The notes beneath the pieces are model-generated. The model saw nothing but the letters and a program-made list of their open reading frames with translations. It did not search any database and was not told the DNA's origin. Below are positions 5,006 to 42,956 of a stretch of 64,000 bases of DNA, in pieces. A program made the position numbers and the translations under genes. This DNA is from Asaia prunellae JCM 25354. Its GTDB lineage: Bacteria; Pseudomonadota; Alphaproteobacteria; Acetobacterales; Acetobacteraceae. The stretch is from NCBI RefSeq assembly GCF_000613885.1, contig NZ_BAJV01000005.1, positions 124,001 through 188,000 on the forward strand, written 5' to 3'. Position 1 is the stretch's first letter, and every line of letters begins with the position of its first letter.

Positions 5006-6393
5006 TTACTGTTCGGCTCCGCCGGGATCATAGCCGAGAGATGCCAGAACCAGCCTGTCTTCCCACCTATTCTGAAGGAGAGCAGGAAGAACAGACAGCG
5101 TTGCCAGAGCCGGATCGCGCAGCATGATGCTCTCAAGGCGGGAGTTCTGGAGGCGCACCCAGCACCACAGATCACCATGTGGCCCTTCTGCGGCACCTAT
5201 GCCCTCGCCGGAGCCGGTCGGGGTGGGGGGGGCAGGGGAAGGGGAGAAGCGAACTGGCTGGCAATACGTTCTATCCGACGCAAAGAGTCCCTTATCTCGT
5301 CGAGGCGCAGGGACTGGCGGGCCCAGCCATCCCCGGCGAGACGTGATCCTGCCCGCCCCGGCACATGGCGCCGGTCGTCCTCAAGCTGACGCAGGTCGAA
5401 AGAACGACCCGAGGCGCGTCCGATCAGTCCGCCAAGACAAAAGCGTTCGGCCGTGGAGGCAGTAATCACACCGAGCCCTTCCAGCATTTCTGCCATTTGG
5501 CCGTGCAATCCTTCCAGTATCGGCAGACGCGGCATCATCGCGTCATGAACTGCATGGGCAAGAGGGCAGATATCAATTCCGGCTGCGATGCCTTCAGGAC
5601 TGATGGCATCGATCAGGCGACGTGAGGCGCCATGCTGGGCACAGAGTTCGGCACAGAGATCTTCAGCGAGTGAAGCATGCGTGTCGAGAAGTGAAAATCC
5701 CGTCAGACGTGCCATCAGGGCTATATCGCGGCAGTGTACGGTAATACGTTCTATTTCTGCCAGAATGGTACGTGCATCTCGCACCGCGTCTGAAGGTACA
5801 AGTCCGAGAGCCTGTTCCACGGCACGGGAGTAGGCCAGTGGGGCTGACACAAAGGCTGCTGAAGTACTACGCCCGATGATCTTCAGAGCCTCTTCTGGTT
5901 TTCTGCCATGAACATGCTGCATGAGACCGGTATGAGCGCCGCCAGGCATAATCTTTCTGGCCCCCCAGGCCAGAGGCGCCATATCGCTGTGCAGCCCTTC
6001 ACGGAATCCCGTATCGGGAGGGGTATGATCTGAGGGAACGGAGCGTTGTGACAGGGGGGAAATGCTGGCCCAGCCACCATGATCGAGCGCTGGTTCGGTT
6101 TCGGCAGCCCCAAGGGGAAGGCAGCCCCAGAGATCCTGGGCCATACGTTCTGGCCATGAGGCTGCGGGAATAGTGGCGGAAAGGGCAAAATACCGCCCAT
6201 CTATAAGGGGCGTGCTGACCAGCAGCGGTGTTTCCTGGTCGAGAAACAGCGCATGGGCCCGGCTGTCATCACACCAGTGGGCAATGAACCAGCCGGGGGT
6301 GGCGTTAATCATGGCGCGCCACTGAGGCTCGTCCAGACCGTAATGATGCGGGGCCAGATGTTCGCCCTGCCTGATATGTCGCACCATGCTCAT
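5006..6393 (-). CDS. HyfG/NuoCD-like subunit lacking Ni-Fe cysteines (frameshift at a G8 run)
   Basis: Related to the HyfG/HycE or NuoCD large subunit of membrane-bound group-4 hydrogenases and complex I. The N-terminal ~130 residues resemble a NuoC domain; the rest matches the large-subunit fold (HGRKPEEALKIIGRSTSAAFV, HCRDIALMARLTG). The N-terminal and C-terminal CxxC pairs that bind Ni-Fe are absent, so it cannot be a hydrogenase. The start ATG at 6393 overlaps the upstream stop (ATGA). As written the frame stops at 5197 after a Pro-rich tail, but the next frame continues without a break to 5006 with the expected family C-terminus (GEGIGAAEGPHGDLWCWVRL, then MLRDPALATLSVLPAL). One extra base in the run at 5225-5232 restores a 462-residue protein. 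Function unknown. Confidence 0.7.
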
Positions 6394-7511
6394 GGGGCTC
6401 TCCAGTGCAGGGACCAGAAAGAAACGGGCAGCATCAGCAGAAAAGGCGAGGCCAGCCCGAGTACAAACAGACTGCCCAGTATGGCCCTGTCCTGCCATGT
6501 CGCAGGGATAGTAATGCCCAGACGGGCACGGCTGGCCAGAAGGCCGAGTGCCAGAAGGCACAGCAGTGCCGGGATTGCACCTGTGTCAAACAAACCGCTC
6601 ACGATCGCACAACATGCGGCAAAGCCCGGCCAGGGGGGGAGACCTGACAGGATCCAGCATCGCATGGATCTGTCGATTGCCGGATGCGCGGCGAGAACAA
6701 GTCCGCTGCTCAGAAGGAGTAGTGCAGGCAAGACCCCATTGGGCAGGGTTGCGGCAATGATGGATAATGCCACGAGCGGACGGGGGCCATCCTGCCGTGT
6801 CATGATGCACAGCCAAAGTCCCGCCAATCCTGCAAGAACCAGCACCATATGAGTGGTTTCACGCTCAGGAAGACGGAGCATCAGTGCCACGACGCTCAGG
6901 CAGAGCAGCATATCCAGAAGGGTTGTACCGCGTTCATTGATTCCTGACTGTTCTCTCGTGGTGACGGGCAGACCAAGTCCCGCCATGAGACAGAGGCCAA
7001 CAGAAAGAAACAGATCACCAAGACGGAGTATGGCCGGATCAGGAATGAGGGTGGTCAGGCTCGTACCAAGCAGGGCCAGAACAACGCCCGCAAGACGCAG
7101 ACGCATTGATTCCCAGGCCTGTCTGGCGCGTGTCGTAACCAGTGTTTCACGCAGGGCCAGTATCAGCGCGGCGCAGGCAGTGAGGCAGGTAACCGGCAGA
7201 AGCGTATGCACGCTGAGCGCCAGCATAATGGCGAAACTGGCCATAAAATTGAGGCAGAGAGCGAGGCGCTTTTCATGTTCCTGCCAGGAAAGAAACGGGA
7301 CGGATCCTGCCAGAAGGCAAGTCCAGCGCGACAGAAGATCCTGTCCTGCCAGAAACGGATCGAGCAGCACGGTCAGCAAGAGCCCTGACAGCGCGAAGAG
7401 CCGTGCTGAGCGCCCGGCCTGTGCCTCGGGCATGAGAGCAAGGAGACATGCTGCCAGAAGCGGCCAGGTCGGAATCAGGAAGACGGCGATCTGATGCAGG
7501 GTCTCAGCCAT
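6390..7511 (-). CDS. HyfF/NuoN-like membrane subunit, strongly diverged
   Basis: 373 residues and about 11-12 hydrophobic segments; placed as a HyfF/NuoN-like antiporter-type subunit mainly by position between HyfE-like and HyfG-like genes and by a remnant SGLPPWPGFAACCAI that matches the conserved GLPPxGxF turn. The usual Lys of the D-L-K-R-x-L-A-Y-S-S segment appears replaced in QDGPRPLVALSII, so a proton path is doubtful. Much shorter than E. coli HyfF (about 526). The ATG at 7511 (MAETLHQ) overlaps the preceding stop at 7504, and the stop at 6390 overlaps the next ATG, so the genes are likely translationally coupled. Codon use and G+C look like the neighbours. Confidence 0.62.
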   Translation of the reverse strand: MAETLHQIAVFLIPTWPLLAACLLALMPEAQAGRSARLFALSGLLLTVLLDPFLAGQDLLSRWTCLLAGSVPFLSWQEHEKRLALCLNFMASFAIMLALSVHTLLPVTCLTACAALILALRETLVTTRARQAWESMRLRLAGVVLALLGTSLTTLIPDPAILRLGDLFLSVGLCLMAGLGLPVTTREQSGINERGTTLLDMLLCLSVVALMLRLPERETTHMVLVLAGLAGLWLCIMTRQDGPRPLVALSIIAATLPNGVLPALLLLSSGLVLAAHPAIDRSMRCWILSGLPPWPGFAACCAIVSGLFDTGAIPALLCLLALGLLASRARLGITIPATWQDRAILGSLFVLGLASPFLLMLPVSFWSLHWRAP

Positions 7512-8058
7512 TTCGCGACCCCTCGGTACGGAGCCAGGCAAGTTTCGGCATGAGCCAGCCTCCCAGAGCCAGTAATCCTGTCCAGACCAGTGTCGTCCCG
7601 AGAACAAGCGGCCAGCTCTGGCTGTAGCCACCAAGCAATAACAGGCCATTCAGGGCACAGAGCAGCCCGACAAGTTGAAGCAATGGTGCCGGGAGCGCTG
7701 CCGCGCATAGGCCGGAAAGAACGATGCCGATACAGATCAGCACTGGCAGACCTGGTATCGCTGCCAGTGCGGTAAGCAGCATGAGCCCTATGGCAGCGCA
7801 CAGGGCGAACCCCGCAGCTTGCTGGATGGCCCGCCTTTCGCGCAGATCCCCCGATCGCCAGGCAATATGGGAACGCAGCACCATCCACCCTGCTCCATTG
7901 AGGAGGGGAAGCAGAATGAGCGCGGCCACGGCCGGGGCGCCATGACCGATGACCGAGACGCAGGCCGCAGCGCAGGTGCCATGAAAAGGCAGGATGCGAC
8001 TGTCACGACCGATAGCCCCGAGCGCAATCAGCAGGGTAAGTCCAAGCAATACCGTCAT
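7504..8058 (-). CDS. HyfE-like membrane subunit
   Basis: 184 residues with about six hydrophobic segments, beginning MTVLLGLTLLIALGAIGRDS at the ATG at 8058. Size and place between the HyfC-like and HyfF-like genes fit HyfE (E. coli about 216 residues), a small integral membrane subunit related to NuoK-like proteins. A longer frame to 8202 runs inside the neighbouring gene and is not supported. The start overlaps the HyfC-like stop (ATGA-type, 8055-8058) and its own stop overlaps the HyfF-like start by eight bases. No conserved buried Glu typical of NuoK-type subunits is obvious to me. Assignment is by context plus hydrophobicity; function unknown. Confidence 0.6.
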   Translation of the reverse strand: MTVLLGLTLLIALGAIGRDSRILPFHGTCAAACVSVIGHGAPAVAALILLPLLNGAGWMVLRSHIAWRSGDLRERRAIQQAAGFALCAAIGLMLLTALAAIPGLPVLICIGIVLSGLCAAALPAPLLQLVGLLCALNGLLLLGGYSQSWPLVLGTTLVWTGLLALGGWLMPKLAWLRTEGSRNG

Positions 8059-8963
8059 GCCGCGAGTCTTCCTGCCAGAACCAGCAGGATCGCAGCGCCG
8101 CTCAGTACCAGAGCCAGACGCGCGGCAGGCAGGGGGCGACAGGCGCGCCATCCGGTAGCAAGAGCAGCCATGAAGGCAAGTTTCGCCGGAGCGGCAATGC
8201 ACCAGAGCATGATCAGCCCCCCCGGTGGATGGGTCCCTGTGTCAACTGAGTCCGGCCAGACTAGATCGGCGATCAGCAGATACCAGCAACAGGCTGAAAG
8301 GTCATGGCTGTAGCGGAGCAGGGCGCGGTGACGCCCCGTGGTCGAGGCAATCAGTTCTTCATGCCAGTTATCGCACAGGAAGCGCCAGCTGAGCACAAGC
8401 AGAAGGGCTGCTGCAACAAAAACCAGTCCGCCGAGCAGAGCCGGTGCGGGCTGCAGAACACGTTGTTGCAACAATCCGGTCAATGTGCCGGCCCCGGGGA
8501 GGCCGATCGAGATCAGGGTGCCGGTCAGGGCAAGAAGGGGGACGAGGAAGAGCAGGTCGCGCCCCAGCCAACTCATTGAGGCACGAACGCGCAGGGCGAT
8601 CAGACGGGTAGGCGCGCTCTGAAGCGCCATTATCCAGGCAGGAATACAGGAAAGGATCAGCAAGACCCCGCAGGCAAGAGGTTCCGAGAGAAAGGAGAAA
8701 AGAGAATGTGCGCTGGCAAGGGGTAGCCCGGCCATGGCAAGCCATACGGCGCACAAGCCGAACCAGGACAGGGCAGGAATACGGCTGTATCGTTGCCAGC
8801 CCCGATACAGATGCCGCCAGCGCCAGCCGGGAGCTGTGCCATTCCGGCCTGCACCAAGGCCCTGCAGTCCCTGTTCGAGATCAGTCAGAAACGGGGCGAT
8901 GATTGCCAGGCAAAGCATCTGGCCCAGTGTGATGGCCAGCGTAATGGCAAGGGAAACAATCAT
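8055..8963 (-). CDS. HyfC/NuoH-like membrane subunit with eroded quinone-site motif
   Basis: 302 residues, about eight hydrophobic segments, close to HyfC length (about 315-322). LEQGLQGLGAGRNGTAPGWRWRHLYRGWQRY matches the position of the family loop that carries the GRRGP/QPYRDL motif, and CDNWHEELIASTTGRHRALLRYSHDL matches the place of the DNPATHLELTMVHEAMVLEYSG motif. Most charged residues that define the quinone chamber in working members are replaced here. This is the central membrane anchor in group-4 hydrogenases and complex I; here the redox partner subunit is missing. Start ATG at 8963 overlaps the upstream stop at 8960. Confidence 0.65.
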   Translation of the reverse strand: MIVSLAITLAITLGQMLCLAIIAPFLTDLEQGLQGLGAGRNGTAPGWRWRHLYRGWQRYSRIPALSWFGLCAVWLAMAGLPLASAHSLFSFLSEPLACGVLLILSCIPAWIMALQSAPTRLIALRVRASMSWLGRDLLFLVPLLALTGTLISIGLPGAGTLTGLLQQRVLQPAPALLGGLVFVAAALLLVLSWRFLCDNWHEELIASTTGRHRALLRYSHDLSACCWYLLIADLVWPDSVDTGTHPPGGLIMLWCIAAPAKLAFMAALATGWRACRPLPAARLALVLSGAAILLVLAGRLAA

Positions 8964-9217
8964 GCAGCCCAGCCCAGCCAGGCCAGCGCTCCGGCGAGAA
9001 GAAGCAGCCAGAGTGCCAGGGTCTGACGCAGCAGGGGAGAAGTGGCCTGACGTGGCGGAAGGGCCGGTTCGAAAGGCAAGCCCGCAGTCGTCAGGCGTTG
9101 CATGCCATGACGCAGGGCAAGCCCGCGAGCGCGCAGACGGGTCAGGGACCGTTTCATCCCCCAGGGCAGGCGAGGCCTGAGTTCCGGCGAGGGCCAGTGC
9201 GGCAGGACGCTGGTCAT
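8960..9217 (-). CDS. 85-residue protein with C-terminal membrane helix, possibly a split HyfB tail
   Basis: A short, Arg-rich protein (about pI basic) with one hydrophobic segment at residues 65-84 (LALWLLLLAGALAWLGW). It starts at 9217, overlapping the HyfB-like stop (ATGA at 9214-9217), and its stop overlaps the HyfC-like start, so it is embedded in the coupled set. I do not recognise it as a stand-alone family. HyfB proteins normally end with a basic stretch followed by a final helix, so this may be the HyfB C-terminus carried as a separate polypeptide. It has no cysteine pattern, so it is not a HyfA/HyfH ferredoxin. Confidence 0.5.
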   Translation of the reverse strand: MTSVLPHWPSPELRPRLPWGMKRSLTRLRARGLALRHGMQRLTTAGLPFEPALPPRQATSPLLRQTLALWLLLLAGALAWLGWAA

Positions 9218-10374
9218 GGAGGCAGGTAGGTCACGAAAGCAGGGGCGATGAGGGCTGGTATCAGAAAAACGAGAGCAGGATACCAGAAACAGCCGTCTCC
9301 TCCGGCGACAGACCAGATCGGCCAGGCCCTCCAGACATCCGGGCCTGCTCCTGCTAGGTCGAGAGCCGTATCATGGAGAATACCCAGCAGCAGGCCGGGA
9401 CAGATTGACAGGCACAGTCCAGCAGTGACCGTCGTCAGCAATCTGTGATCGTGCACGATCACAGCCTGTGTGAAATGGCGCCAGATTGCGAGCCAGCCCC
9501 GCACCATGAGAAGGCCAAGCAGAAGGCTCAGGATCACGGCTCCTGCTGTCCAGGCGGGAGAAAGGCTGCTCAGGCCGTTGATAACATGCAGCCCAAGCCA
9601 GAATGGCAGAAAACCGGCCAGAGGCGGTAAGGGTGTCTGAAAGACACTGTTCCTGCTATCGAGTCCTTGCAGGGCCAAAGCCAGTATCATGGCCTCGCCT
9701 CCGGCGAGCGCCGTGTCAGCCAGGCCATTTTCCCTGGCGCAGAGCATCAGACCGAGAAGCAGGACAGGCCAGTATTCCAGTGTTCTTTCGACGCGTTGAA
9801 ACAGACAGAGCCCGCTGCCAAGCAGAATGAGGGCCACAGGCCAGAAAGCACTCTGTTCCTGTATCAGGGGCGGAACAAAAAGAGCGTAGGCGAGCAGAGG
9901 CATTTCCGCAAAGGCGGGCAGTGTTGCCAGCCCCGCGGCAGGAGCCAGAAAGGAAAGGGCGGGAAAGTCAGGGAGGATGGCCAGAAGGCATCCTGCAGGA
10001 GCCAGAAGTCCCAGTCGCCAGTTCTGAAAAGGTTGTTCGTTTTTCGCCCTGTTTTTCTGATGTGCCGCTTCGGCAAGACAAAGAAGAAAGCAGAACAGGG
10101 CCAGCGCAGCGTCATGACACAGAAGGCCGAGGCCCCCAAGTGTCTCACCAATCGGTCCGACATGACGGCGGCATGTTATCAGTGTGAGCGTCCAGAGCAT
10201 AATCCAGCAGGCGTTGAGAGGATCAAGGGCCAGAGGACCAAGATGGGCCTTATGCAAAGCCAGAGCACCCCAGCAACCCGCCACGCCCTGAATGCCCAGA
10301 ACAGCCTGTCGGAGAAGGGGGATGGAGGGGCCTGGCAGTCTTGATGTCGCAAGACGCAGCACAAGACAGCTCAA
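9214..10374 (-). CDS. HyfB/NuoL-like membrane subunit, shortened
   Basis: 386 residues with around 12 hydrophobic segments; first gene of the Hyf-like set. It is much shorter than HyfB/NuoL (about 620-670). Position and fold-like hydrophobicity pattern suggest the antiporter-type subunit, but the family Glu/Lys channel residues are not recognisable. The only start in frame is a TTG at 10374; an open frame continues upstream to a stop at about 10446 with hydrophobic sequence (DDSLFSALPLVLLL) but no ATG or GTG, while an ATG at 10420 is one frame off and stops after three codons. The true start may therefore be masked by a further indel near 10410. Confidence 0.55.
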   Translation of the reverse strand: MSCLVLRLATSRLPGPSIPLLRQAVLGIQGVAGCWGALALHKAHLGPLALDPLNACWIMLWTLTLITCRRHVGPIGETLGGLGLLCHDAALALFCFLLCLAEAAHQKNRAKNEQPFQNWRLGLLAPAGCLLAILPDFPALSFLAPAAGLATLPAFAEMPLLAYALFVPPLIQEQSAFWPVALILLGSGLCLFQRVERTLEYWPVLLLGLMLCARENGLADTALAGGEAMILALALQGLDSRNSVFQTPLPPLAGFLPFWLGLHVINGLSSLSPAWTAGAVILSLLLGLLMVRGWLAIWRHFTQAVIVHDHRLLTTVTAGLCLSICPGLLLGILHDTALDLAGAGPDVWRAWPIWSVAGGDGCFWYPALVFLIPALIAPAFVTYLPP

Positions 10375-10563: not shown

Positions 10564-11409
10564 TCAGATCATTTCCAGGGGAGTCTTGTACTGCGGTGGT
10601 GAAAAACGCTTATCCAGCTGCTCGCACTCTTTTCCGGTCAGCTCCAGATCAAGGGCAGCAATATTGTCGCGCATGTGAGTGCGGGTACCTGCTTTGGGAA
10701 TAGCCAGAATGTTGGGATGCCGGAGCGTCCAGGCGAGAGCGATCTGGGCAGGGCTGGCGGGGCCCGTCGCGGTTTCATGATGCCTGGCAATATCAGTCAG
10801 GACAGGATCATCTAGTAGATCACCTCCCTGGCCAAGAGGAGAGTAAGCGATCGAAACAATCCCGGCGTTCCTGTCCCGCGTCAGAAGATCGAACTCGGCG
10901 CCGCGCGCCTCAAGATTATAGAGTATCTGGTTTGCGGCACAGTCGGAACTCAGAAGATCCAGCTCCCTCATATCGTCTGTGTCGAAATTGGAGACGCCCC
11001 AGCGTCGGATCATTCCTTTTGCCTTAAGGGTAGTCAGTGCCTCGATAGTCTCTTCAAGAGGAATGCTTCCCCGCCAGTGTAGCAGATAGAGATCGAGATA
11101 ATCGGTGCCGAGTCGGTCGAGCGAGGCCTCGCAACTACGCAGGGTTTTTGAGAAGCTGGCATTTGAAGGCAGCACTTTGCTGATCAGGAAAACCTCTTTG
11201 CGCCGGTTGCGTATTGCTTCGCCGACAAGGTGCTCTGAACGGCCACTGCCATACATTTCTGCCGTATCGATCACGCTCAGACCTGCATCCAGCCCCATAT
11301 GTAAGCTGGCGATTTCCTCGTTACGTGAAGCTGTTGAATCCCCAAGATTCCAGCTGCCCATTCCCAGTGCCGGAACAGAGGCGCTATCGCCAAAACGGAC
11401 CTTTTTCAT
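10564..11409 (-). CDS. Aldo/keto reductase
   Basis: 281 residues of the aldo/keto reductase TIM-barrel family: NADPH-dependent reduction of aldehydes or ketones in the cytoplasm. The catalytic tetrad is visible as Asp and Tyr in VIDTAEMYGSGRSE (near residues 48 and 53), Lys in LISKVLP (near 78) and His in LYLLHWRG (near 111). The cofactor loop IPKAGTRTHMRDNIAALD near residue 235 is typical. AAGGAAA lies just upstream of the ATG at 11409. It is divergent from the bicupin gene at 11588. The substrate is not determinable; a related family member is 2,5-diketo-gluconate reductase, but this is only a loose guess. Confidence 0.92.
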   Translation of the reverse strand: MKKVRFGDSASVPALGMGSWNLGDSTASRNEEIASLHMGLDAGLSVIDTAEMYGSGRSEHLVGEAIRNRRKEVFLISKVLPSNASFSKTLRSCEASLDRLGTDYLDLYLLHWRGSIPLEETIEALTTLKAKGMIRRWGVSNFDTDDMRELDLLSSDCAANQILYNLEARGAEFDLLTRDRNAGIVSIAYSPLGQGGDLLDDPVLTDIARHHETATGPASPAQIALAWTLRHPNILAIPKAGTRTHMRDNIAALDLELTGKECEQLDKRFSPPQYKTPLEMI

Positions 11410-29888: not shown

Positions 29889-30356
29889 GTGGTTGCGCCA
29901 GTGTCTCAGTTTCTCGCAGATCATGCTTTAGCGATCTATGTGGCCTTTACGGTCGTTTTCCTCTGCATCGTGGTGGCGCTTTCTGCTGCTCTTGGGCCTC
30001 GTCGTGTGGGTGCCGCGCGCGGGCGCTCCATGAGCATCCCCTACGAGTCAGGAATTCTCTCCACAGGTTCGGCGCGTATCCGTCTTCCGGTACAGTACTA
30101 TCTGCTGGCCGTGTTTTTCGTGATTTTCGACGTTGAGAGCGTGTTCATCTACTCATGGGCATCCGTTGTGGTCGAGGCTGGCTGGGCCGCCTTCATCACG
30201 GTCGTGACCTTTGTTGTCTTTCTGACCTTGGCTCTCATCTATCTCTGGCGCAGCGGCGCCCTCGAATGGGGTCCCGAGCACCGCCGCATGCCGGTCAAGG
30301 TGCCGCCCAATTCCCCTGTTGAACTTGTCAAAATCCCCACGCGCGAGGTCGTATAA
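29889..30356 (+). CDS. nuoA: NADH-quinone oxidoreductase subunit A
   Basis: 155 residues with three membrane helices. The conserved loop [41 protein letters not shown] (near 50-90) is the quinone-site loop with the invariant Glu/Asp residues that works with NuoH and NuoD. A GTG at 29889 (GGGA upstream) is the most likely start; a second GTG four codons on is possible. First gene of the nuo operon; nuoB begins three bases after the stop. Confidence 0.95.
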
Positions 30357-30358
30357 CG

Positions 30359-31000
30359 ATGACTTGGACTCTTACCTCCGCCGTCGGCGAGCCTCGTCTG
30401 CAATCACCTGAAGAATTGCTGGCACATGAGGATGTGCGTCGTAATCTTGTGGTTGGTAAATTGCAGGACTTCATTTCCTGGGGGCAGAAGAACTCGGTCT
30501 GGCCATTCAATTTCGGTCTGTCCTGCTGTTACGTTGAAATGGCGACAGCTTTTACCAGTCGCTATGATATTGCCCGCTTCGGTTCCGAAGTGCTGCGTGC
30601 CACCCCGCGTGAAGCCGATCTGATCGTGATTGCCGGTACGGTATTTCGCAAGATGGCGCCTATCGTGAAGTATCTTTACGACCAGATGCTTGAGCCGCGC
30701 TGGGTCATTTCCATGGGATCCTGTGCCAATTCGGGCGGTATGTATGACATCTACAGTGTCGTTCAGGGCGTCGACAGCTTCCTTCCTGTTGATGTGTATG
30801 TGCCTGGTTGTCCCCCGCGCCCCGATGCATTGCTCGAAGGACTGATGCTGCTGCAGGACTCTATCGGCAAGCAGCGCCGTCCGCTCAGCTGGATGGTGGG
30901 TGATCAGGGTGTGACCAAGGTTACTCCGGCCAGTATGCGCGACCTCAAGCGTGAAGAACGTATGGCGGTCACCAAGCTGCGCACCCCGGACACGATCTGA
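30359..31000 (+). CDS. nuoB: NADH-quinone oxidoreductase subunit B
   Basis: 213 residues, carrier of iron-sulfur cluster N2, the last electron donor to quinone. The ligand pattern [21 protein letters not shown] (Cys-Cys near 57-58), [15 protein letters not shown] (near 122) and [20 protein letters not shown] (near 152) is intact. A peripheral subunit at the membrane junction. Starts at the ATG two bases after the nuoA stop. Confidence 0.97.
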
Positions 31001-31013
31001 GGAGCAGACAGCA

Positions 31014-32776
31014 ATGAGCGAAGTTTTCGAAAAAACCCGTTCCGGCGTCATGGGTGCAGCTGTCGCTGCCTTCCCCCCGCATATGATCATCATGGAAGAG
31101 TCGACGCGCGATGGTGTGCCGACCTTCTGGGTATCGCGTGGACAGATCCGCGCCGTACTGCAGGCGGTGAAGTCAGGTGGCACGCTGCGTATGCTGCTCG
31201 ATCTGACCTGCGTGGACGAGCGCCAGCGCATTCATCGCGATGGCCTGCCTGCGTCGGACTTCACGGTTGTCTATCATATCCAGTCGTTCAATGGCCCGAT
31301 AGACGAAGTGCGCTTCAAGGTGCCGCTCTCGGTTGATGATCCGAATATTGGTACCATCTCCGATATCTGGCCGAATGCAAACTGGCTGGAGCGTGAAGCC
31401 TGGGATCTGTTCGGTGTCGTGTTCGAGGGGCATCCGCATCTCTCGCGCATTCTGACCCCGCCCACCTGGGTCGGTCATCCGCTGCGCAAGGATCACTACG
31501 CCCGCGCGACCGAACGCCCGCCTTATACCCTTTCAGAAGATCAGGTTTTCCACGAGCAGGAAGCCCTGAAATTCGACCCCGAATCCTGGGGCATGAAGCG
31601 TCATTCCGACAACAGTGACTTCATGTTCCTCAATCTCGGTCCGAACCATCCTTCGGTTCACGGCGTGTTCCGCGTCGTGCTGCAGCTTGAGGGTGAATTC
31701 ATCGTCGATGCTGTGCCCGATATCGGCTTCCATCATCGCGGTGCCGAGAAAATGGCCGAGCGCCAGACCTGGCACAGCTACATCCCCTATACCGACCGTA
31801 TCGATTATGTCGGCGGGGTGATGAACAACTTCCCTTATGTGATGGGTGTCGAGAAGCTGGCGGGTATCACCGTACCGCCGCGCGCGCAGCTTATTCGCAT
31901 CATGCTGGCCGAGTTCTTCCGTATCTCCAGCCATCTCGTGTTCTACGGAACCATGGTGCAGGATCTGGGTCAGCTCTCGCCGGTCTTCTACATCTTCACC
32001 GACCGCGAGCGCGTTTCGAGATCATCGAAAAGATCTGCGGCTTCCGCATGCATCCGGCCTTCTTCCGCATCGGTGGCGTGGCGATGGATCTGCCGCAGGG
32101 CTGGGATGGCGAGGTTCGAGCCTTCCTCGATTATCTGCCCAAGCGTCTGGACGAGTACAACGAACTCGTCATGAAGAACCCGATTTTCAAGGCCCGTACC
32201 AAGGGCGTTGGCGTTTACAACACCGAAGAAGCGGTGGACTGGGGCGTAACCGGGCCGGGGCTGCGTGCCACGGGTCTGGAGTGGGATTATCGTCGCAAGG
32301 CACCCTATTCGGGCTATGACCAGATCGATTTCGACATCCCGACCGCCGTCAATGGCGATTGCTATGACCGCGCTGCGGTGCATATCGAAGAGATCCGCCA
32401 GAGCCTGCGTATCATCCGCTACTGTCTCGATAACATGCCGGGCGGGGCCTACAAGGCCGAGCATCCGCTGGCCATGCCGCCGCCGAAGCCACGTACGATG
32501 CATGACATCGAGACGCTCATCCATCACTTCGTGGGCGTCAGCTGGGGGCCGGTCATTCCGCAGGGCGAAGTGCGTTCCTGCATCGAGGCGACCAAGGGGC
32601 TGAACCAGTATTACCTCGTGAGCGATGGTGGCACGATGTCCTACCGGACGCGTATCCGCACCCCTTCGTTTATTCATCTGCAACAGCTTCCGATGCTGTC
32701 ACGCGGCACCATGATTGCCGATCTGATCGCCATTATCGGAAGCATCGATTTTGTGATGGCCGATGTCGACCGCTGA
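31014..32776 (+). CDS. nuoCD: NADH-quinone oxidoreductase subunit C/D fusion (frameshift near 32015)
   Basis: A fused NuoCD of about 587 residues. The NuoC part carries [43 protein letters not shown]; the NuoD part starts near [31 protein letters not shown] and shows [29 protein letters not shown], the quinone-site His/Tyr. Fusion is the E. coli state; most Alphaproteobacteria keep separate genes. The frame breaks after YIFTDRERV: adding one T to the TTT at 32014-32016 gives [22 protein letters not shown], then runs to 32776. Start ATG at 31014 after GGAGCAGACAGCA; upstream frame to 30951 lies within nuoB. Confidence 0.93.
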
Positions 32777-33271
32777 ACTTACGGCGCAGGACGCCGAACT
32801 CCCACAGGATCTCGTCGATACGTTCATCGACATGGCCGCTCACGAGCATCATCCCGTGGTGCTGCCATCGAAGCGCTGCGTCTGGTGCAGGAGCGTTTCG
32901 GCTGGATCAACGACGCGCATCTTGCTCATACGGCGCGGGTTCTGGGCATGTCCCAGGCCGATCTGGACGGGATTGCCACTTTTTTCAATCTTCTGTTCCG
33001 CAAGCCTGTCGGCAAGAACGTGGTCATGCTCTGTGACTCCGTTTCCTGCTACATCATGGGGGCTGAACAGACACGCGAACGCCTGTGCAAGAAGCTGGGC
33101 GTGAAAATGGGCGAAACGACGCCGGATGGTGAATTCACCGTACTGCCGATCGTCTGCCTTGGTCACTGCGATCACGCCCCGGCGATGCTGATCGGCAGGG
33201 ATCTGTTTGGTCCCGTTCGTCCGGAAGACATTGACGGCATCATTGATGAAATTCGGGCGAGGAAGAAGTGA
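32763..33271 (+). CDS. nuoE: NADH-quinone oxidoreductase subunit E (frameshift near 32854)
   Basis: About 169 residues; binds the [2Fe-2S] cluster N1a beside the FMN subunit. The ATG at 32763 overlaps the end of nuoCD by 14 bases. As written the frame ends early ([11 protein letters not shown]), but one added C in the CCC at 32853-32855 gives [39 protein letters not shown]. Ligands are [12 protein letters not shown] and [14 protein letters not shown]. Its stop overlaps the nuoF ATG (TGATG). Confidence 0.92.
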
Positions 33272-34586
33272 TGACAGGTCTGAATCCCGAAAAGCAGCCG
33301 CTTCTGGCGCTTGTCAATCGCGAGACGCCGCTTGACCCGGCAGGTTATGACAAGAAGGGCGGCTGGCGCGGTCTGCGTCGTGCCCTGGGCATGAGCCCCG
33401 CCGAGATCATCACTGAAGTGACGGACTCCAAGCTGCGCGGTCGCGGCGGTGCCGGTTTCAGCACCGGCATGAAATGGAGCTTCGTCCCCAAGGAATCCTC
33501 GAAGGACCGACTCAAATATATCGTCGCCAATGGTGATGAAATGGAGCCAGGCACCTTCAAGGATCGTATCCTTGTCGAGGGCAACCCGCTTCAGCTTATC
33601 GAGGGCATGATTATCTCGGCCTATGCCATCCAGGCACGGCACGGAATCATCTTCCTGCGTGGTGAATATCATCTGGGTCTGGAGCGTCTTCAGCAGGCGG
33701 TCATCCAGCGCGTGAGGCCGGATTCCTGGGCGAGAACATTCTTGGTTCTGGCTTTGATTTTGATCTGCATGTCCATCCCTCCGCCGGTCGTTATATCTGC
33801 GGTGAAGAAACGGCTCTGATCACAGCGCTTGAAGGTCGTCGCGCCAATCCCCGCGCCAAGCCGCCTTTCCCGCAGATCGGTGGCCTGTGGGGCGCGCCGA
33901 CGGTCGTGAACAACATCGAGACCTTCAGCAATATCCCGCATATTCTGGCCAATGGCACGGAATGGTACCTGGGCCTCAGCGCCTGTGTCGATGGCGGTAC
34001 CAAGCTCTACGGTGTCAGCGGTCGCGCCAAGCGCCCCGGTGTGTTCGAACTGCCTCTGGGCACGTCGCTTGGTGTCATCCTCAATGAATGCGCAGGCGGC
34101 ATGCAGGATGGTTACAAGCTCCGTGCATTCCTGCCCGGTGGCGCCTCAACAGCGTTTCTCGGTGCTGAACACGCCGATATCATCATGGACTACCCGACGC
34201 CGGAAAAGGCAGGCAGTCGCCTTGGCACAGGTCTGGCTATTCTGCTTGATGACAAGACCAGTCCGATCGGGATGATCCGCAATCTCGAGCATTTCTTTGC
34301 GCAGGAATCCTGCGGCTGGTGCACGCCCTGTCGTGACGGCCTGCCCTGGGTTGAGCGTCTTCTGATCGCCATTGAAGAAGGGCGTGGCACGCCGGAGGAT
34401 ATCGAACGCCTCCATGACGCTGCCCGTCTGATCGGCCCGATGGGGCGCACGTTCTGCGCTCATGCCCCCGGTGCGATCGCGCCTCTGGCCAGCGGTCTGA
34501 AGATGTTCGCCGAGGATTTCCAGCGAATGGTTAGCAAGTCCACCCCCGGTACCGTGGAAAGCGGTGCCGCAGGGCAGGCGGCGTAG
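33271..34586 (+). CDS. nuoF: NADH-quinone oxidoreductase subunit F (frameshift near 33708)
   Basis: About 438 residues; binds NADH, FMN and cluster N3, the electron entry of complex [18 protein letters not shown] and [15 protein letters not shown] mark the nucleotide and flavin sites; [20 protein letters not shown] near the C-terminus holds three N3 cysteines, with a fourth in [11 protein letters not shown]. The first frame stops at 33819; adding one base near 33708 (CAGCGCG to CAGGCGCG) gives [39 protein letters not shown] and continues to 34586. I use the ATG at 33271; a GTG three bases upstream is an alternative. Confidence 0.93.
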
Positions 34587-34599
34587 GAGGAACGGCTCG

Positions 34600-37311
34600 A
34601 TGGCAAAAATCGTAATCGACGGCCGCGAGGTTGAAGCACGCACTGACGTGAACCTTCTTCAGGCCTGTCTCGAGGCAGGAAAAGACCTGCCTTATTTCTG
34701 CTGGCATCCCGAGCTTGGCTCTGTCGGTGCCTGCCGCCAATGTGCTGTCAAGCAATATGCCAATGCTGATGACAAGCGTGGCCGTATTGTCATGGCCTGC
34801 ATGACACCGGTTACCGAAGGCGCAATTTTCTCGGTCGATGACCCTGAAGCCAAGGAATTCCGTGGCGAAGTGGTCGAGTGGCTGATGACAAATCATCCGC
34901 ATGACTGCCCGGTCTGCGAAGAAGGCGGCGAATGCCATCTTCAGGACATGACCGTCATGACCGGTCATCGTGAGCGTCGCTATCGCTTTGACAAACGTAC
35001 CCATAACAACCAGGAACTCGGTCCTTTCGTGAAGCACGAGATGAACCGCTGCATTTCCTGCTATCGTTGCGTGCGCTTCTATCGTGATTATGCAGGTGGC
35101 GAGGATCTGGGTGTTTTTTCGGCCCATAACAACGTCTATTTCGGCCGTCACGAAAGTGGCACGCTCGAGAGCCCGTACTCTGGTAACCTGATCGAGGTCT
35201 GCCCGACAGGCGTGTTTACCGACAAGCCGTTCTCGAAGATGTACAGCCGCAAATGGGACATGCGGGGTGCACCGTCCGTCTGCTCGAATTGCGCAACGGG
35301 GTGCAACACCATCATCAACGAACGGGCAGGCAAGGTCCGCCGTACGCTGAACCGTTACAATGATGAAGTGAACCGCTATTTCCTGTGTGACCGCGGGCGT
35401 TTCGGGCATGGCTGGGTCAACGCTCCCACGCGTCTGCGTTCGGCCGGCTATGTGATCAACGGGGACATGACGCCGGTTCCGGCACAGGCAGCACTTGATC
35501 ATTTCGGCAAGATTGCCGCGACCGGCAAGCTCGTCGGTATCGGCTCGCCGCGTGCCTCGCTCGAATCCAACTATGCGCTACGCAAGCTCGTCGGCGCCGA
35601 GAATTTCTCGACCGGCATGGCCGAGCCCGAGCATAGTCTGGTCAAGCTGGCGGTCTCGCTGCTGGGTTCAAGTCCGGCACGTATTGCTACCATGCATGAA
35701 ATGGAAACCTCTGACGGTGCGCTGATCCTTGGTGAGGACGTCTCGGCGACATCGCCGCGCATGAGCCTTGCCCTGCGTCAGATCAAGCGTACGGCTTTCA
35801 ACAAGGCCGCTGATCAGGCTCGTGTCCCTCATTGGATGGACGCTTCGGTGCGTACGCTGGGTCAGGATACGGTCTCGCCGCTCTTCGTGGTTTCCCCGAC
35901 TGTCACCGATCTGGACGGGTTCGCGCAGGATGCGATCCGCGCCATGCCCGAAAACGCGGCCCGTCTCGGCTTTGCCATTGCCCATCGCATTGATTCCTCT
36001 GCGCCCGATGCCAGTGACCTGACAGAGGCAGAAACTGCCTCTGCCTCACGCATCGCAGAGGCCCTGCTCGCCGCCGAGAAGCCGCTTCTGGTTTCCGGAC
36101 TGCAATACGCTTCGGCAGCCCTGCTTCAGGCAACCGCCAATATTGCATCCGCACTTGCGGCCAAGGGCAAGACGCCACTCGTCAGCTTTGTGCTGCCTGA
36201 AGGAAACTCCATGGGGCTGGCCCTCATGGGGGGGCTTTCTCTGGATGAGATCGTCTCCCGCTCGGCAGATGCCACGCTTATTGTTCTTGAAAATGATCTG
36301 AGCCGCCGTCTCGATACCGTGCGGTTCAATACGCTGATCGACAATGCGGCCAATCTGGTCGTGCTGGATCATTCGGTCACTCCGACCGCGATCCGCTCGC
36401 AGGTGACGTTCCCTTCGGCTGCCTATACTGAAACAGATGGTACGCTGATCAGTGCTGAAGGCCGCGCGCAGCGTTTCTTCCAGGTGGTCTATCCTGATGC
36501 ACCCTTGCAGGCCGCCTGGCGGTGGATCGCCGACATGGCACAGGCAGCCGGACGATCCCATGTAAAGCCCTGGGCCAAGCTGGACGACCTGATTGCCGAG
36601 ATCGCGACAATCATGCCGGTCTTTGCACGCATCCCCGAGGCTGCTCCTGCCTCGGACTACACGCTTGAAGGCGTGCCGCTGCGGAGTCAGACCCACCGGG
36701 TGAGTGGTCGCACAGCTATCCGGGCCAATATCAGCGTACGTGATATTCCGCCGCCCGCATCGCCGGACACTCCGTTGCACTCGACCATGGAAGGTTCGTA
36801 TTCCACTGATATGCCGGGTACGCTCGTACCATTCTATCAGGTGCCTGGCTGGAATTCCGAGCAGTCCCTGAACCGTTTCCAGCAGGAGATCGGTGGCAAG
36901 ATGCGCGGTGGTGACTGCGGCGTGCGTCTGGTCGAGGGGGTTGCTAACGCGGCTGCTTCCTATGCCATGGATGTACCTTCTGCCTTTGTACCACGCGTCG
37001 GCCAGTTCATGCTTCTGCCTGAAGCCCGTGTATTCGGTACGGATGAGATGAGCATGATGGCCCAGCCGATCGCTGATCGCGCCGCCCCCGCGGTGGTGCG
37101 TATCGGCGGTGCTGTGGCCAAGGGCAGCCAGGTGCGTCTGTCGCTGAATGGCGAGGTCTTTACGGTTGATGCCGTGTCTGATCCGACACTGCCTGAAGGG
37201 GTAGCCACCTGCCCACCCCACATGGTGTCGCGCTCCTGGTCCGCTCCGGGCTGGGTGTCGCTTGAAATGACGGCGCCTGCCGAGCGTGTTGAAACGGAGA
37301 GCGCGGTATGA
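34600..37311 (+). CDS. nuoG: NADH-quinone oxidoreductase subunit G, long type
   Basis: 903 residues, like E. coli NuoG (908) and about 200 longer than the usual alphaproteobacterial form. AGGAGG precedes the ATG at 34600. Iron-sulfur sites: N1b (CWHPELGSVGACRQC, CMTP), N5/N4 (HDCPVCEEGGECHLQDM, CISCYRCVRF, VCPTGVF) and the extra N7 site (VCSNCATGCNTII ... FLCDRGRFG near 225-270) which is kept. The long C-terminal molybdopterin-oxidoreductase-like domain carries no cofactor in the family. The frame is intact across 2.7 kb. Confidence 0.97.
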   Translation: MAKIVIDGREVEARTDVNLLQACLEAGKDLPYFCWHPELGSVGACRQCAVKQYANADDKRGRIVMACMTPVTEGAIFSVDDPEAKEFRGEVVEWLMTNHPHDCPVCEEGGECHLQDMTVMTGHRERRYRFDKRTHNNQELGPFVKHEMNRCISCYRCVRFYRDYAGGEDLGVFSAHNNVYFGRHESGTLESPYSGNLIEVCPTGVFTDKPFSKMYSRKWDMRGAPSVCSNCATGCNTIINERAGKVRRTLNRYNDEVNRYFLCDRGRFGHGWVNAPTRLRSAGYVINGDMTPVPAQAALDHFGKIAATGKLVGIGSPRASLESNYALRKLVGAENFSTGMAEPEHSLVKLAVSLLGSSPARIATMHEMETSDGALILGEDVSATSPRMSLALRQIKRTAFNKAADQARVPHWMDASVRTLGQDTVSPLFVVSPTVTDLDGFAQDAIRAMPENAARLGFAIAHRIDSSAPDASDLTEAETASASRIAEALLAAEKPLLVSGLQYASAALLQATANIASALAAKGKTPLVSFVLPEGNSMGLALMGGLSLDEIVSRSADATLIVLENDLSRRLDTVRFNTLIDNAANLVVLDHSVTPTAIRSQVTFPSAAYTETDGTLISAEGRAQRFFQVVYPDAPLQAAWRWIADMAQAAGRSHVKPWAKLDDLIAEIATIMPVFARIPEAAPASDYTLEGVPLRSQTHRVSGRTAIRANISVRDIPPPASPDTPLHSTMEGSYSTDMPGTLVPFYQVPGWNSEQSLNRFQQEIGGKMRGGDCGVRLVEGVANAAASYAMDVPSAFVPRVGQFMLLPEARVFGTDEMSMMAQPIADRAAPAVVRIGGAVAKGSQVRLSLNGEVFTVDAVSDPTLPEGVATCPPHMVSRSWSAPGWVSLEMTAPAERVETESAV

Positions 37312-38270
37312 TGCCCATAGTGTGGCCAATTCTTGTCATCGTCGTGACCGTCTTTGGCGTGCTCGGCGTTGCTGCGCTTTCGACAACACTGGAACGTCGC
37401 CTTCTTGGCGTCTTCCAGGATCGTCCGGGCCCTAACCGTGTCGGACCTTTCGGTCTCTTCCAGATCATCGCCGATGCGATGAAGATGCTGTTCAAGCAGG
37501 ACTGGATACCGCCTTTTGCCGACAAATGGGTCTTTCTCATTGCCCCTATCATCGGGTTTCTGGCTGTTCTGCTCAGCTTTGGCGTTGTTCCGATCACGCC
37601 TATCTGGGGTGTGGCTGGCGAGCTGAATGTCGGCCTGCTCTTCGTATTCGGCATGCTGGGTCTTGGTGTCTATTCGGTGGTTCTCGCTGGTTGGTCGTCC
37701 AACAACAAATATGCCCTGCTCGGTGGCATGCGTGCCGCCGCCCAGATGATCTCCTATGAGGTTTTCATGGGTTTGTCGGTCATGGGCGTTGTCATGGCTG
37801 CGGGCTCATTCAGCATTCGCGATATTGTGGAAGCCCAGACAAATTGCTGGTTCATTATCCCGCAATGTCTCGGGGCCGTCATCTTCCTGCTGGCTGGTAT
37901 TGCCGAGACGCATCGTCTGCCTTTCGACTTTCCCGAGGGCGAAAACGAGATCGGCGCCGGTTTCCATACCGAATATTCGGGCATGAAGTTCGGCCTGTTC
38001 TATCTTGCGGAATATGCAGGCGTTGCCCTGAGCTCGGCTCTGATCACCACGCTTTATCTCGGCGGCTGGCATGGTCCTTTCCTGCCACCCTTTCTGTGGT
38101 TTGCGATCAAGGTCTTCCTGCTGATCTGCTTCTATATTCTTCTGCGTGCAGCCCTGCCGCGCCCCCGTTACGACCAGCTGATGTCCTTCGGCTGGAAGGT
38201 GCTGCTGCCGCTGTCATTGCTTAACATTCTGGTCACCGGCGCAGTCATCCTGCTGCGCGCGGGCGTCTGA
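37308..38270 (+). CDS. nuoH: NADH-quinone oxidoreductase subunit H
   Basis: 320 residues, eight membrane helices. It forms the quinone chamber at the joint of the peripheral and membrane arms. [35 protein letters not shown] (near 25-60) and the acidic loop [40 protein letters not shown] (near 200-240) keep all family charges, in contrast to the HyfC-like protein at 8055. The ATG overlaps the nuoG stop (ATGATG). Confidence 0.97.
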
Positions 38271-38283
38271 GAGGGAGCGCGCC

Positions 38284-38796
38284 ATGCTCGGTATTCTCCG
38301 CACTATATGGTTGACGTTCCTGCACATGTTTCATCGTAATGAAACGGTACAGTACCCGGACGTCAAACCGTACCTGTCCCCCCGCTATCGCGGTCGTATC
38401 GTTCTTACCCGCGATCCCAGCGGCGAAGAGCGCTGTGTGGCCTGTAATCTATGCGCGGCAGCCTGTCCGGTGGATTGCATCAGCCTGCAAAAGGGCGAAA
38501 AGGAAGGACGCTGGTATCCGGAGTTCTTCCAGATCAACTTTTCACGCTGCATCTTCTGCGGTTTCTGTGAAGAGGCCTGCCCGACCTACGCCATTCAGCT
38601 CACCCCGGATTTCGAGATGAGCGAATATGTGCGCCAGAACCTGGTTTACGAGAAGGAAGACCTCCTGATCAGCGGACCCGGCAAGGTACATGATTACAGC
38701 TTCTATAATGTGTCGGGGCTCAAGATCCCGGGCAAGAACAAAGGTGAAGCCGAAAATGAAGCCAAGCCTATCGATATCCATGCACTGATGCCCTGA
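38284..38796 (+). CDS. nuoI: NADH-quinone oxidoreductase subunit I
   Basis: 170 residues, a ferredoxin-like subunit with two [4Fe-4S] clusters N6a and N6b: [15 protein letters not shown] (near 50-65) and [23 protein letters not shown] (near 88-112). It passes electrons to NuoB. GAGAGGGAG lies ten bases upstream of the ATG at 38284. The stop is followed after two bases by the nuoJ ATG. Confidence 0.97.
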
Positions 38797-38798
38797 TC

Positions 38799-39302
38799 AT
38801 GAATATCATGCTTGAACTCTATGGGTTGATTGCCATCGGCGCGACCGCGTTGGCAATTACCCGCACAATCCCGGTGCACGGCCTGCTTTATCTCGTTGTG
38901 TCCCTTCTGGCTCTGGCCTGCATGTTCGAACAGCTTGGTGCACCTTTTGCCGCCATGCTGGAAATTATCGTCTATGCCGGTGCCATCATGGTGCTGTTCG
39001 TTTTCGTGGTCATGATGATCAATCTCGGCCAGCCCGACCAGCTTCGTGAAAAAGGCTGGTTCGCTGGTGGTGCCTGGATCGGCCCCAGTGTGATCTCGAT
39101 CCTGCTGATGGGCCTTTTGGTCTACGGGCTGAACCACAACACCATGGCGGTAGGTACGGTCGGTGCCGTGATCGGCCCCAAGGCGGTCGGCCTTACGCTT
39201 TATGGCCCGTATATCCTGACCGTCGAGCTTTCCTCCTTCCTGCTGCTTGCAGGGCTGGTAAGCGCCTATCATATCGGCCGCCGGATTGGGGGGAATTCCT
39301 GA
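38799..39302 (+). CDS. nuoJ: NADH-quinone oxidoreductase subunit J
   Basis: 167 residues, five membrane helices. The conserved segment [25 protein letters not shown] (near 50-75) contains the Glu and the pi-bulge Tyr-Ala-Gly typical of the central proton path. Length agrees with E. coli NuoJ (184) allowing a shorter tail. nuoK starts one base after its stop. Confidence 0.95.
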
Positions 39303-39303
39303 T

Positions 39304-39615
39304 ATGACTGCTGCCGATCCGAATGGCGCGCTCATTGTCGCCGTTATACTCTTTTCACTCGGAGCGTTGGGCGTACTTGTGCGCCGCAACCTGCTCTTCA
39401 TGCTGATGTCGACCGAGATCATGCTCAATGCCGCGTGCCTCGCATTCATCGCTGCGGGAAGTCGATGGCATATGGCCGATGGCCAGGTCATGTTCATGAT
39501 GGTTGTGGCCTTTGCTGCTGCGGAATCAGCAGTCGGTCTGGCCATCATCCTGCGCATGCATGCTGCCGGACGCTCCACGCTTGATGCCGATACCGGCAAC
39601 CGTCTGGGGGGTTAG
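39304..39615 (+). CDS. nuoK: NADH-quinone oxidoreductase subunit K
   Basis: 103 residues, three helices, with the two membrane Glu residues in [15 protein letters not shown] (near 35) and [16 protein letters not shown] (near 70). These line the central hydrophilic axis. The ATG at 39304 ([20 protein letters not shown]) sits just after the nuoJ stop; an earlier in-frame ATG at 39286 lies inside nuoJ and would add six residues. Confidence 0.95.
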
Positions 39616-39619
39616 TCTC

Positions 39620-41458: not shown

Positions 41459-42956
41459 TGATGTTGGCACTTCCCGCTCTCGTTCTTATTCCCTTCATCG
41501 GGGGGCTCGCTGCCTGGCTGGTCGGGCTGCGTGGCGCTTCACGTGCTGCCTGGGTATCATCACTGATTACCCTCGTCCTGATGATCGTTCTTCTTGCTCA
41601 GGTTACGATCAGCAGCCTTGGTTCAGGCGCAGGAACAGGGGGATGGTTCGCCCATTTCTCGATGGCCTGGGTGCCGATGCTCGGCATCAATCTGCGGTTT
41701 GATCTCGACGGGCTGAGCCTTGTCATGCTCTGGCTCAATGCGCTGATCTCACTGCCTTGCGCATTGCTGAGCTCGCGTAACGTGACAGACCGCGCCGGAC
41801 TGTTTCACTGCCTGCTTCTGGCCACTGTGGCCGGAATCAATGGCGTGTTCATGGCGACCGATCTGTTCCTGTTCTTCTTCTTCTGGGAGCTGATGCTGCT
41901 GCCGCTCTTCGGCTGATCCTGATCTGGGGTGATGCCGGTCGCCAGCGTGCCGTGCTGAAGTTCTTCCTGTTCACGCAGGGCAGCGGCCTGTTGATGCTTC
42001 TGGCCATTCTGGGGCTGGTCATCGTCAATGCGCAGCGCACGAACGTGATTACCTTCGACTATTTTGCACTGTCGCAGACGGCCCTGATTGCGCCGGTCGC
42101 TCCGGTCCTGATGCTGGGTTTCTTCATCGCGTTTGCAGTAAAGCTGCCTATGGTACCATTCCATGCCTGGCTGCCTGACACCTATGCTTCCTCACCCGCT
42201 GCAGTCAGCATCCTGCTTTCGGGTGTGCTGGCCAAGACAGGTGGTTATGGTCTGATCCGCTTTGTGGTCATGCTCTTTCCGGGAGCCGCTGCGCATATTG
42301 CCCCCCTCGCTATGACAATGGGTGTTGTCGGTATTCTTTATTGTGCCTGGCTCGCTGTGGCGCAGGACGATATCAAGCGACTGATTGCCTATTCGTCTAT
42401 CAGTCATCTGGGCTTCATTCTTCTGGGTGTGTTCTCGGGTACGCGTATCGGTATGGAGGGTGCAATTGCCCAGATGGTTGCCCATGGTCTCAGCACGGGG
42501 GCACTGTTCATCATTGCCGGCCTGCTCGAAGATCGCCTCGGGACCCGTGACATGTCGAAGATGGGGGGGCTATGGCCCGCCATGCCCCGGTTCTCGGCGC
42601 TGGCCATGTTTTTTGCAGCCGCGTCGCTGGGTCTGCCAGGACTTGGGAACTTTATTGGCGAGTTCCTTGTCCTGCTTGGCACCTGGCGGGTCAGCCATGT
42701 CATGACGTTTTTCGCGGCTGCCGGGCTTGTCCTGTCTTCGGTCTATTCGCTCACCATGATGCTTCGCGTATTCTATGGTCCGAAAAAGACCGATGCTGTT
42801 GCTCCGCTTGGCGCAGCCTCAGTGCCGCATATCGCCGTGCTTGGTGTGGCAGCCCTTCTTCTTCTCGCGCTGGGTCTCTATCCGCAGCCGGTCCTGAACC
42901 TTTCAGTCCCGGCCAGCCCCCATGTCGTGAGCATCGCTCAGGAGCAGGCACAGTAA
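41455..42956 (+). CDS. nuoM: NADH-quinone oxidoreductase subunit M (frameshift near 41911)
   Basis: About 500 residues, second antiporter-type subunit. The first frame covers FFFFWELMLLPLF (conserved Glu) and stops at 41916; adding one G to the GG at 41911-41912 gives FGLILIWGDAGRQRAVLKFFLFTQGSGLLMLLAI and the frame runs to 42956. Later motifs: AVKLPMVPFHAWLPDTYASSPAAVSILLSGVLAKTGGYGLIR (Lys near 235) and DDIKRLIAYSSISHLGFILLG. ATG at 41455 overlaps the nuoL stop; further ATGs at 41458 and 41461 are alternatives. Confidence 0.93.

Follow-up and report, generated by a model that had tools for sequence, protein, structure and literature searches.

The window analysed here, 64,000 nucleotides of contig NZ_BAJV01000005.1 of Asaia prunellae JCM 25354 (genome G000, 3.18 Mb in 38 contigs), carries on its minus strand, between positions 5006 and 10374, overlapping open reading frames (ORFs) in the order HyfB-(85 amino acids, aa)-HyfC-HyfE-HyfF-HyfG. 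This order and the ATGA-type overlaps agree with the original prediction made for this DNA. Ehr complexes are described, in the relevant passages of three PubMed Central (PMC) reports (PMC4378227, PMC10284858, PMC6349859), as group 4 hydrogenase-related complexes of unknown function whose large subunit lacks CxxC motifs. In Sulfobacillus, a passage of the first of these places nuoH-, nuoL-, HyfE- and HyfB-like genes beside the large subunit (PMC4378227), and a coupling of redox chemistry to ion transport is suspected in a passage of the last (PMC6349859). The sequence comparisons below suggest, on a roughly even balance of probability, that the window cluster supplies HyfB, C, E, F and G, five subunits of an Ehr-like complex of six, which would be a redox module that descends from an energy-converting ancestor and does not pump. 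The cluster is a conserved, eroded Ehr, neither decaying nor lacking a NuoB-type subunit.

Two genes of the cluster are interrupted in the window. HyfB and the 85-aa stretch, formerly taken for a sixth gene, form a single ORF in A. siamensis and several other relatives, which rules out a separate 85-aa subunit and identifies it as the frame-shifted C-terminus of HyfB. In tblastn searches with A. siamensis proteins, the reading frame of hyfB changes near 9220 and that of hyfG between 5245 and 5215. The original frame of hyfG runs to a stop at 5197, and the conserved C-terminal part of the protein, which extends to 5006, is read in another. The complex I (nuo) operon of the window can serve as an internal comparison, as proposed, but is not the normal one that had been assumed: nuoCD (31020-32776), nuoF (33268-34586) and nuoM (41443-42956) are frame-broken here and continuous in A. 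siamensis (L112). Since several core respiratory genes of the window are broken at once, the hyfB and hyfG breaks are likely sequencing or assembly errors; they were left unmended in all window sequences. Among relatives, hyfG is split into three ORFs in L043 (6115-7725; genome G133, genus tag g47), which could be an error or a recent loss, and is one ORF in its relative L042. Some frames are likewise broken in L029 and L031, the latter having a short hyfB ORF and a split hyfG in a genome that is 88% complete.

Table 1. Coordinates of the Hyf-like cluster and associated features in the window.
Feature	Position	Strand	Basis or remark
hyfB-like, main part, 386-aa ORF	9214..10374	-	A. siamensis HyfB match begins at 10323
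85-aa ORF, hyfB C-terminus in a shifted frame	8960..9217	-	one ORF with hyfB in A. siamensis
hyfC-like, NuoH relative, 302 aa	8055..8963	-	profile match to canonical HyfC; dN/dS
hyfE-like, about 184 aa	7504..8058	-	profile match; dN/dS
hyfF-like, antiporter-type, short, without conserved lysines, 373 aa	6390..7511	-	profile match; dN/dS
hyfG-like, NuoD/large-subunit relative, without Ni-Fe cysteines	5006..6393	-	Pfam; frame break 5245-5215
aldo-keto reductase gene, upstream of hyfB	10564..11409	-	conserved neighbour
complex I (nuo) operon, internal comparison	29889..44404	+	nuoCD, nuoF and nuoM frame-broken in assembly

Subunit assignment and canonical relatives

HyfG is the sole cluster ORF above a Pfam cut-off (Complex1_49kDa, 29.4 bits, cut-off 24), and the NuoD models of NCBIfam match it below their cut-offs. 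None of the membrane ORFs of the cluster matched any Pfam or NCBIfam model above cut-off. The best NCBIfam matches of HyfF were to Mrp antiporter models (E 0.0024 and 0.018, below cut-off), and the antiporter domain of Pfam (PF00361) was found in three genes of the window genome, all in the nuo operon. Profiles of the Asaia clade matched those of the canonical subunits on the diagonal only (HyfB, E 1e-4; HyfC, E 5e-17 at 98.8% probability; HyfE, E 0.0033; HyfF, E 0.0029), the off-diagonal matches among HyfB, C, E and F having E values of at least 0.15. An Ehr-type gene set, consisting of antiporter-like, NuoH-like, HyfE-like, large and small subunits, is present in full, with five genes in the window and hyfI elsewhere. 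HyfC has relatives of 79% identity in Asaia platycodi and 78% in A. siamensis, and it was found in 9/9 genomes of the genus. Of 289 genomes sampled across the class, few of them Acetobacteraceae, the other 288 gave no match to the HyfC profile at E ≤ 1e-20.

Canonical forms for comparison were drawn from twenty loci of weaker HyfC matches, many of which hold HyfB-C-E-F-G-I in other Acetobacteraceae (e.g. L092, L093, L099, L100 and L104). Their ORFs measure 664-764 aa for HyfB, 319 aa for HyfC (five loci), 222-224 aa for HyfE (four loci) and, where not over-extended, 471-495 aa for HyfF. Neither hyfG nor hyfI was found in the stretches of L097 and L102; in L089 some 4 kb separate hyfI from hyfG, and the membrane subunits of L087, L090, L095 and L106 were only partly recognised. 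Plasmid pRL11 of Rhizobium johnstonii is annotated with the same six hyf genes in order, a plasmid of Azospirillum thermophilum carries hyf genes in the same order with hyfE unannotated, and HyfG matches at E ≤ 1e-20 occur in 81 plasmid records. A quick HyfG tree, built with no bootstrap, places the short forms, Asaia included, on one branch of 23 rows with a value of 98 in the Shimodaira-Hasegawa-like approximate likelihood ratio test (SH-aLRT); the position of L042, on a long branch, is unsure. The rows whose hyfI is linked to nad genes form one clade of six (SH-aLRT 95) with g38 apart, and L091, L096 and L098 group with the canonical branch. The short-form clade appears to represent acetic acid bacteria.

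Ligand residues of HyfG

Cysteines at the nickel-iron (Ni-Fe) ligand positions (DRVCGIC, DPCYSC) are present in none of the 25 HyfG-type rows aligned. In its own frame the window row stops short of the second motif, the place of which reads GYDPGGAEQ in the other frame. Six of the eight canonical rows carry a cysteine immediately preceding the first ligand position of that motif (NCSYSG vs DPCYSC). HypD, the one Hyp gene searched, was found in 0/23 cluster-carrying genomes, the E. coli control being positive. A hydrogenase is rejected on these two counts, in agreement with the earlier proposal that the complex has no hydrogenase chemistry. Of the other HyfG residues, the H-x-G histidine shows no variation and the one that follows E-x-E-R is retained by at least 90% of 16 rows; both would lie near cluster N2.

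A NuoB-like subunit encoded in the NAD operon

The cluster had been described as having no NuoB subunit. A search with PF01058 in the 23 cluster-carrying genomes (hit genomes G186 and G284 left out) found a HyfI-type gene in every one of them, including 9/9 of the genus, so loss of NuoB is rejected. At least one further NuoB-family gene occurs in 20 of the 23; in the remaining genomes, G282, G254 and G138 (genus tag g55), the HyfI type is the sole NuoB-family gene and no complex I NuoB was found. In the window genome hyfI lies on another contig (G000:C31:174008-174352; L051 8476-8958). It stands downstream of hyfG in 9/23 genomes and elsewhere in 14/23, and its proximity in relatives contradicts the "lost NuoB" part of the original prediction only. 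The four cluster cysteines of HyfI (C36, C39, C103 and C138) are all kept in 15/15 family rows.

Where hyfI is separate, it belongs to an operon hyfI-nrtR-nadA-nadB-nadC for the synthesis of nicotinamide adenine dinucleotide (NAD) in 13 of the 14 genomes, including 9/9 Asaia, the exception being g38. On contig C31 of the window genome (L051 4114-8958) hyfI is the first gene of this operon and overlaps the gene for an NrtR-type regulator by four bases. Two of the nine hyfG-linked cases, genus tags g26 and g80, have an opposite-strand gene between hyfG and hyfI; there the hyfI-nrtR pair is near hyfG, and no nadABC was found within the stretch fetched. The intervening gene (L039 13311-14093, L040 13270-14148), on the strand opposite to hyfG and hyfI-nrtR, contains a NUDIX domain, identified in L039 and assigned to L040 by sequence similarity.

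A search of the 23 short-form loci (L029-L050 and the first 20 kb of the window), the nine hyfI loci and 20 other loci found no relative of HyfA, HyfD, HyfH or NuoE, F, G and I in the short-form and hyfI loci. Of the three subunits reported as missing from the cluster, HyfA and HyfH thus went unfound in the loci as well, but HyfI is not missing from the genome. Among the 20 other loci only L093 has a ferredoxin-like ORF, of 424 aa, about 4 kb from hyfI. The earlier idea of a borrowed electron-input subunit holds in that a part is encoded elsewhere; HyfI, however, seems to belong to the complex itself, its gene having moved into the NAD operon.

Co-inheritance of HyfG and HyfI

Since the HyfC profile misses many clusters, presence and absence were scored with the HyfG profile instead, in 31 further genomes that are part of those without a HyfC-profile match. 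Of the 31, 27 carry a HyfG-type gene along with two or more NuoB-family genes, and in 25 of these 27 the HyfG match has a NuoB-family match no more than about 1 kb away; the other four have neither HyfG nor HyfI (G011, G025 and G104 with one NuoB and NuoD-level matches only, G074 with none). Three cases are weak: HyfG of G037 scores at NuoD level (89 bits) yet adjoins a NuoB match, the second NuoB match of G039 is partial and on another contig, and hyfI of G009 is separate with no nad gene found beside it. Taken together, both genes are present in 50/54 Acetobacteraceae genomes, neither in four and one alone in none, a count over related genomes and not over 54 independent events.

This bears on the possibility that HyfI has left the complex to serve NAD synthesis as a redox sensor or electron carrier, with HyfBCEFG working alone. 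Such a departure would suit the four-base overlap with the NrtR-like gene in L051 and the nadABC linkage in 13/14 genomes, but is very unlikely, since hyfI and hyfG never occur one without the other in the 54 genomes and since, in g26 and g80, hyfI-nrtR lies downstream of hyfG with no nadABC in the stretch. Nor do the intact cysteines in all 15 rows, together with this constant pairing, support the electron-independent complex that had been suggested.

Erosion of the membrane arm

Charged residues invariant in the canonical subunits were mapped onto the short forms by profile alignment. At aligned positions, those kept in at least half of the short rows number 0/5 in HyfB, 4/14 in HyfC, 0/1 in HyfE and 2/13 in HyfF, the HyfC count agreeing with the earlier observation that this subunit has lost most acidic residues of the quinone chamber. 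Further invariant charged positions fall in deletions (HyfB 4, HyfC 2, HyfE 1, HyfF 0) or outside the aligned range (HyfB 10, HyfC 0, HyfE 3, HyfF 5). Plain counts of conserved columns would overstate the loss, the short set being more divergent than the canonical set, and residue mapping is the fairer measure. Lysines K159 and K224 of canonical HyfF are aligned and replaced in 14/14 short rows, which upholds the suspected loss of the HyfF channel lysine at these two positions, K343 lying outside the aligned range. K310 and K361 of HyfB fall in deletions of the short forms. In short HyfB and HyfF no lysine reaches 80% conservation, whereas the canonical relatives have invariant lysines, and relative to the canonical rows compared, A. 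siamensis HyfB lacks 235 residues and HyfF 117. The antiporter-type subunits of the short forms are thus without the channel lysines that could be aligned; such lysines are taken as usual for Ehr from the canonical relatives and are not stated as defining in the passages on Ehr cited above.

A complex that still pumps ions through non-canonical residues, driven by redox chemistry of HyfI and HyfG, would explain why charged positions remain conserved in HyfB (E210, H246, D343) and HyfF (D58, R82, R213) and why the antiporter-type subunits have not been discarded. We consider it improbable in view of the replaced HyfF lysines, the deleted HyfB lysines and the shortening of both subunits.

Selection

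The ratio of nonsynonymous to synonymous substitution rates (dN/dS) was estimated by the Nei-Gojobori method; with dS at about 0.9-1.5 the values are rough. Between the window and A. siamensis it is 0.073 for hyfG (first 383 codons), 0.096 for hyfE, 0.122 for hyfB (362 codons), 0.122 for hyfF and 0.136 for hyfC, and for hyfI it is 0.059 (L051-L052). More distant pairs, among the six lowest-dS pairs listed per gene, reach 0.245 for hyfC, 0.241 for hyfE, 0.184 for hyfG and 0.126 for hyfI. The neighbouring aldo-keto reductase, selO and flippase genes give 0.092, 0.099 and 0.057, and nuoB, nuoH, nuoI and nuoJ give 0-0.036. The complex thus evolves faster than complex I, but like ordinary neighbour genes, and the selection on the cluster that had been surmised is apparent at values far from 1.

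Simple decay of a former hydrogenase operon into pseudogenes in the window strain would account for the broken frames of hyfB and hyfG and for those of L043, L029 and L031. It is, however, extremely unlikely: similar breaks affect nuoCD, nuoF and nuoM here, which are intact in A. siamensis, all nine genomes of the genus have the cluster, and comparison with A. siamensis gives dN/dS of 0.06-0.14.

The principal alternative is a "deranged" complex kept for its structure, which would stabilise another membrane complex or protein and in which any iron-sulphur (Fe-S) cluster would be idle in turnover. Precedents are the bc1 and COX1-like proteins without metal ligands that are retained in Acetobacteraceae and for which structural roles are proposed (PMC10715153); that article uses the word hydrogenase once, for type 1 enzymes. 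A HyfG stripped of hydrogenase and complex I quinone residues alike would fit such a part. This explanation is possible and somewhat unlikely. The four HyfI cysteines are retained in 15/15 rows and, in the A. siamensis comparison, dN/dS is lower for hyfI and hyfG than for the other four genes, neither of which would be expected of a pure scaffold. In G282, G254 and G138, which have no other NuoB-family gene, support of complex I cannot be the sole need. Because the HyfI cysteines are retained and dN/dS of hyfI and hyfG is low, a redox role is favoured over a scaffold.

Conserved neighbour

In 22/23 short-form loci (all but L031) hyfB has an aldo-keto reductase gene on its upstream side. Among the 20 other loci it is directly or nearly upstream of the cluster in L087, L090, L096 and L103 and 2-4 kb away in L094, L102 and L104, the other 13 having none in the stretch. 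Its product resembles Dkg and YdjG-type reductases, below curated cut-offs, and may be a functional or operon partner of the complex.

Discussion

Relatives of complex I are thought to be built around the coupling of electron transfer to ion movement. In the Ehr-like, non-pumping complex that we favour, the six proteins HyfB, C, E, F, G and I would assemble in the inner membrane. A putative soluble donor would reduce the HyfI cluster directly, no HyfH/NuoI-like subunit having been found to cover that cluster, and electrons would pass to a putative acceptor in the pocket formed by HyfG, HyfI and HyfC. The shortened membrane arm would no longer pump and might serve as an anchor or for quinone access.

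Several findings weigh against this reading. HyfG is without the histidine and tyrosine that NuoD of complex I uses for quinone, which leaves the acceptor putative, as the donor is. Where HyfG H-R-G has its arginine, the window and A. siamensis rows have another residue; L033, L036 and L037, short rows of the same group, keep the arginine, and the canonical rows have lysine. Profile matches to the canonical subunits are weak for HyfB (57.8% probability), HyfE (9.6%) and HyfF (10.6%), and structure predictions of HyfB and HyfF from three-row alignments reached predicted local distance difference test (pLDDT) scores of 36 and 41 and were not used. The loss of channel lysines leaves aside HyfB K231 and K262, HyfF K343 and HyfE K72, which are outside the aligned ranges, and since the charged positions listed above remain conserved in short HyfB and HyfF, another ion path is possible. 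More distant pairs also reach dN/dS of 0.372 in hyfB and 0.370 in hyfF.

A more specific proposal, that the complex is a redox module tied to NAD homeostasis which gave up ion pumping and kept an N2-type cluster, is improbable at present. On this view HyfI would be produced along with the enzymes of NAD synthesis, its gene lying next to that of an NrtR-like regulator, and the complex may take up electrons from that pathway (e.g. at the L-aspartate oxidase step) or report to it the redox state of the quinone pool.

Ehr complexes are already known; what appears new is an eroded Ehr with its small-subunit gene in an NAD operon, as nothing was found in the open-licence PMC literature on a Hyf-like cluster in acetic acid bacteria or on such an Ehr. 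The lineage amounts to a natural experiment, in which a six-subunit relative has had its channel residues eroded and its Fe-S subunit remains under selection, and other genera of the family have canonical forms that can serve for comparison. The host is aerobic and culturable. Whether a complex I relative can work uncoupled thereby becomes testable, and such a host and the link to NAD synthesis offer a handle on Ehr complexes.

Comparison with known systems

As in Ehr, HyfG is without both CxxC motifs and is accompanied by a NuoB-like small subunit with four cluster cysteines; unlike in Ehr, the membrane subunits of the Asaia clade are shortened, with few canonical charges, and the small-subunit gene is in the NAD operon. 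The canonical hyfBCEFGI clusters of Acetobacteraceae, R. johnstonii pRL11 and A. thermophilum have the same subunits in the same order and, in the Acetobacteraceae rows that were checked, likewise no Ni-Fe ligand cysteines, but differ from Asaia in their longer HyfB and HyfF, their invariant lysines and hyfI as the last gene of the cluster. E. coli hydrogenase-4 shares the order B-C-(D)-E-F-G-(H)-I and homologous HyfG and HyfI, whereas in the Asaia clade no HyfA, HyfD or HyfH was found in the loci, the Ni-Fe cysteines are absent and HypD was found in 0/23 genomes. With complex I, represented by the nuo operon of the window, the cluster shares NuoD- and NuoB-type families by profile, but the Hyf-like set has no relative of the NADH-input subunits or NuoI in its loci and HyfG has neither the quinone histidine nor the tyrosine of NuoD. 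The deranged bc1 and COX1-like proteins of Acetobacteraceae, as presented in part of PMC10715153, resemble the cluster in that respiratory proteins outlast their catalytic ligands; in contrast to them, HyfI keeps its Fe-S ligands.

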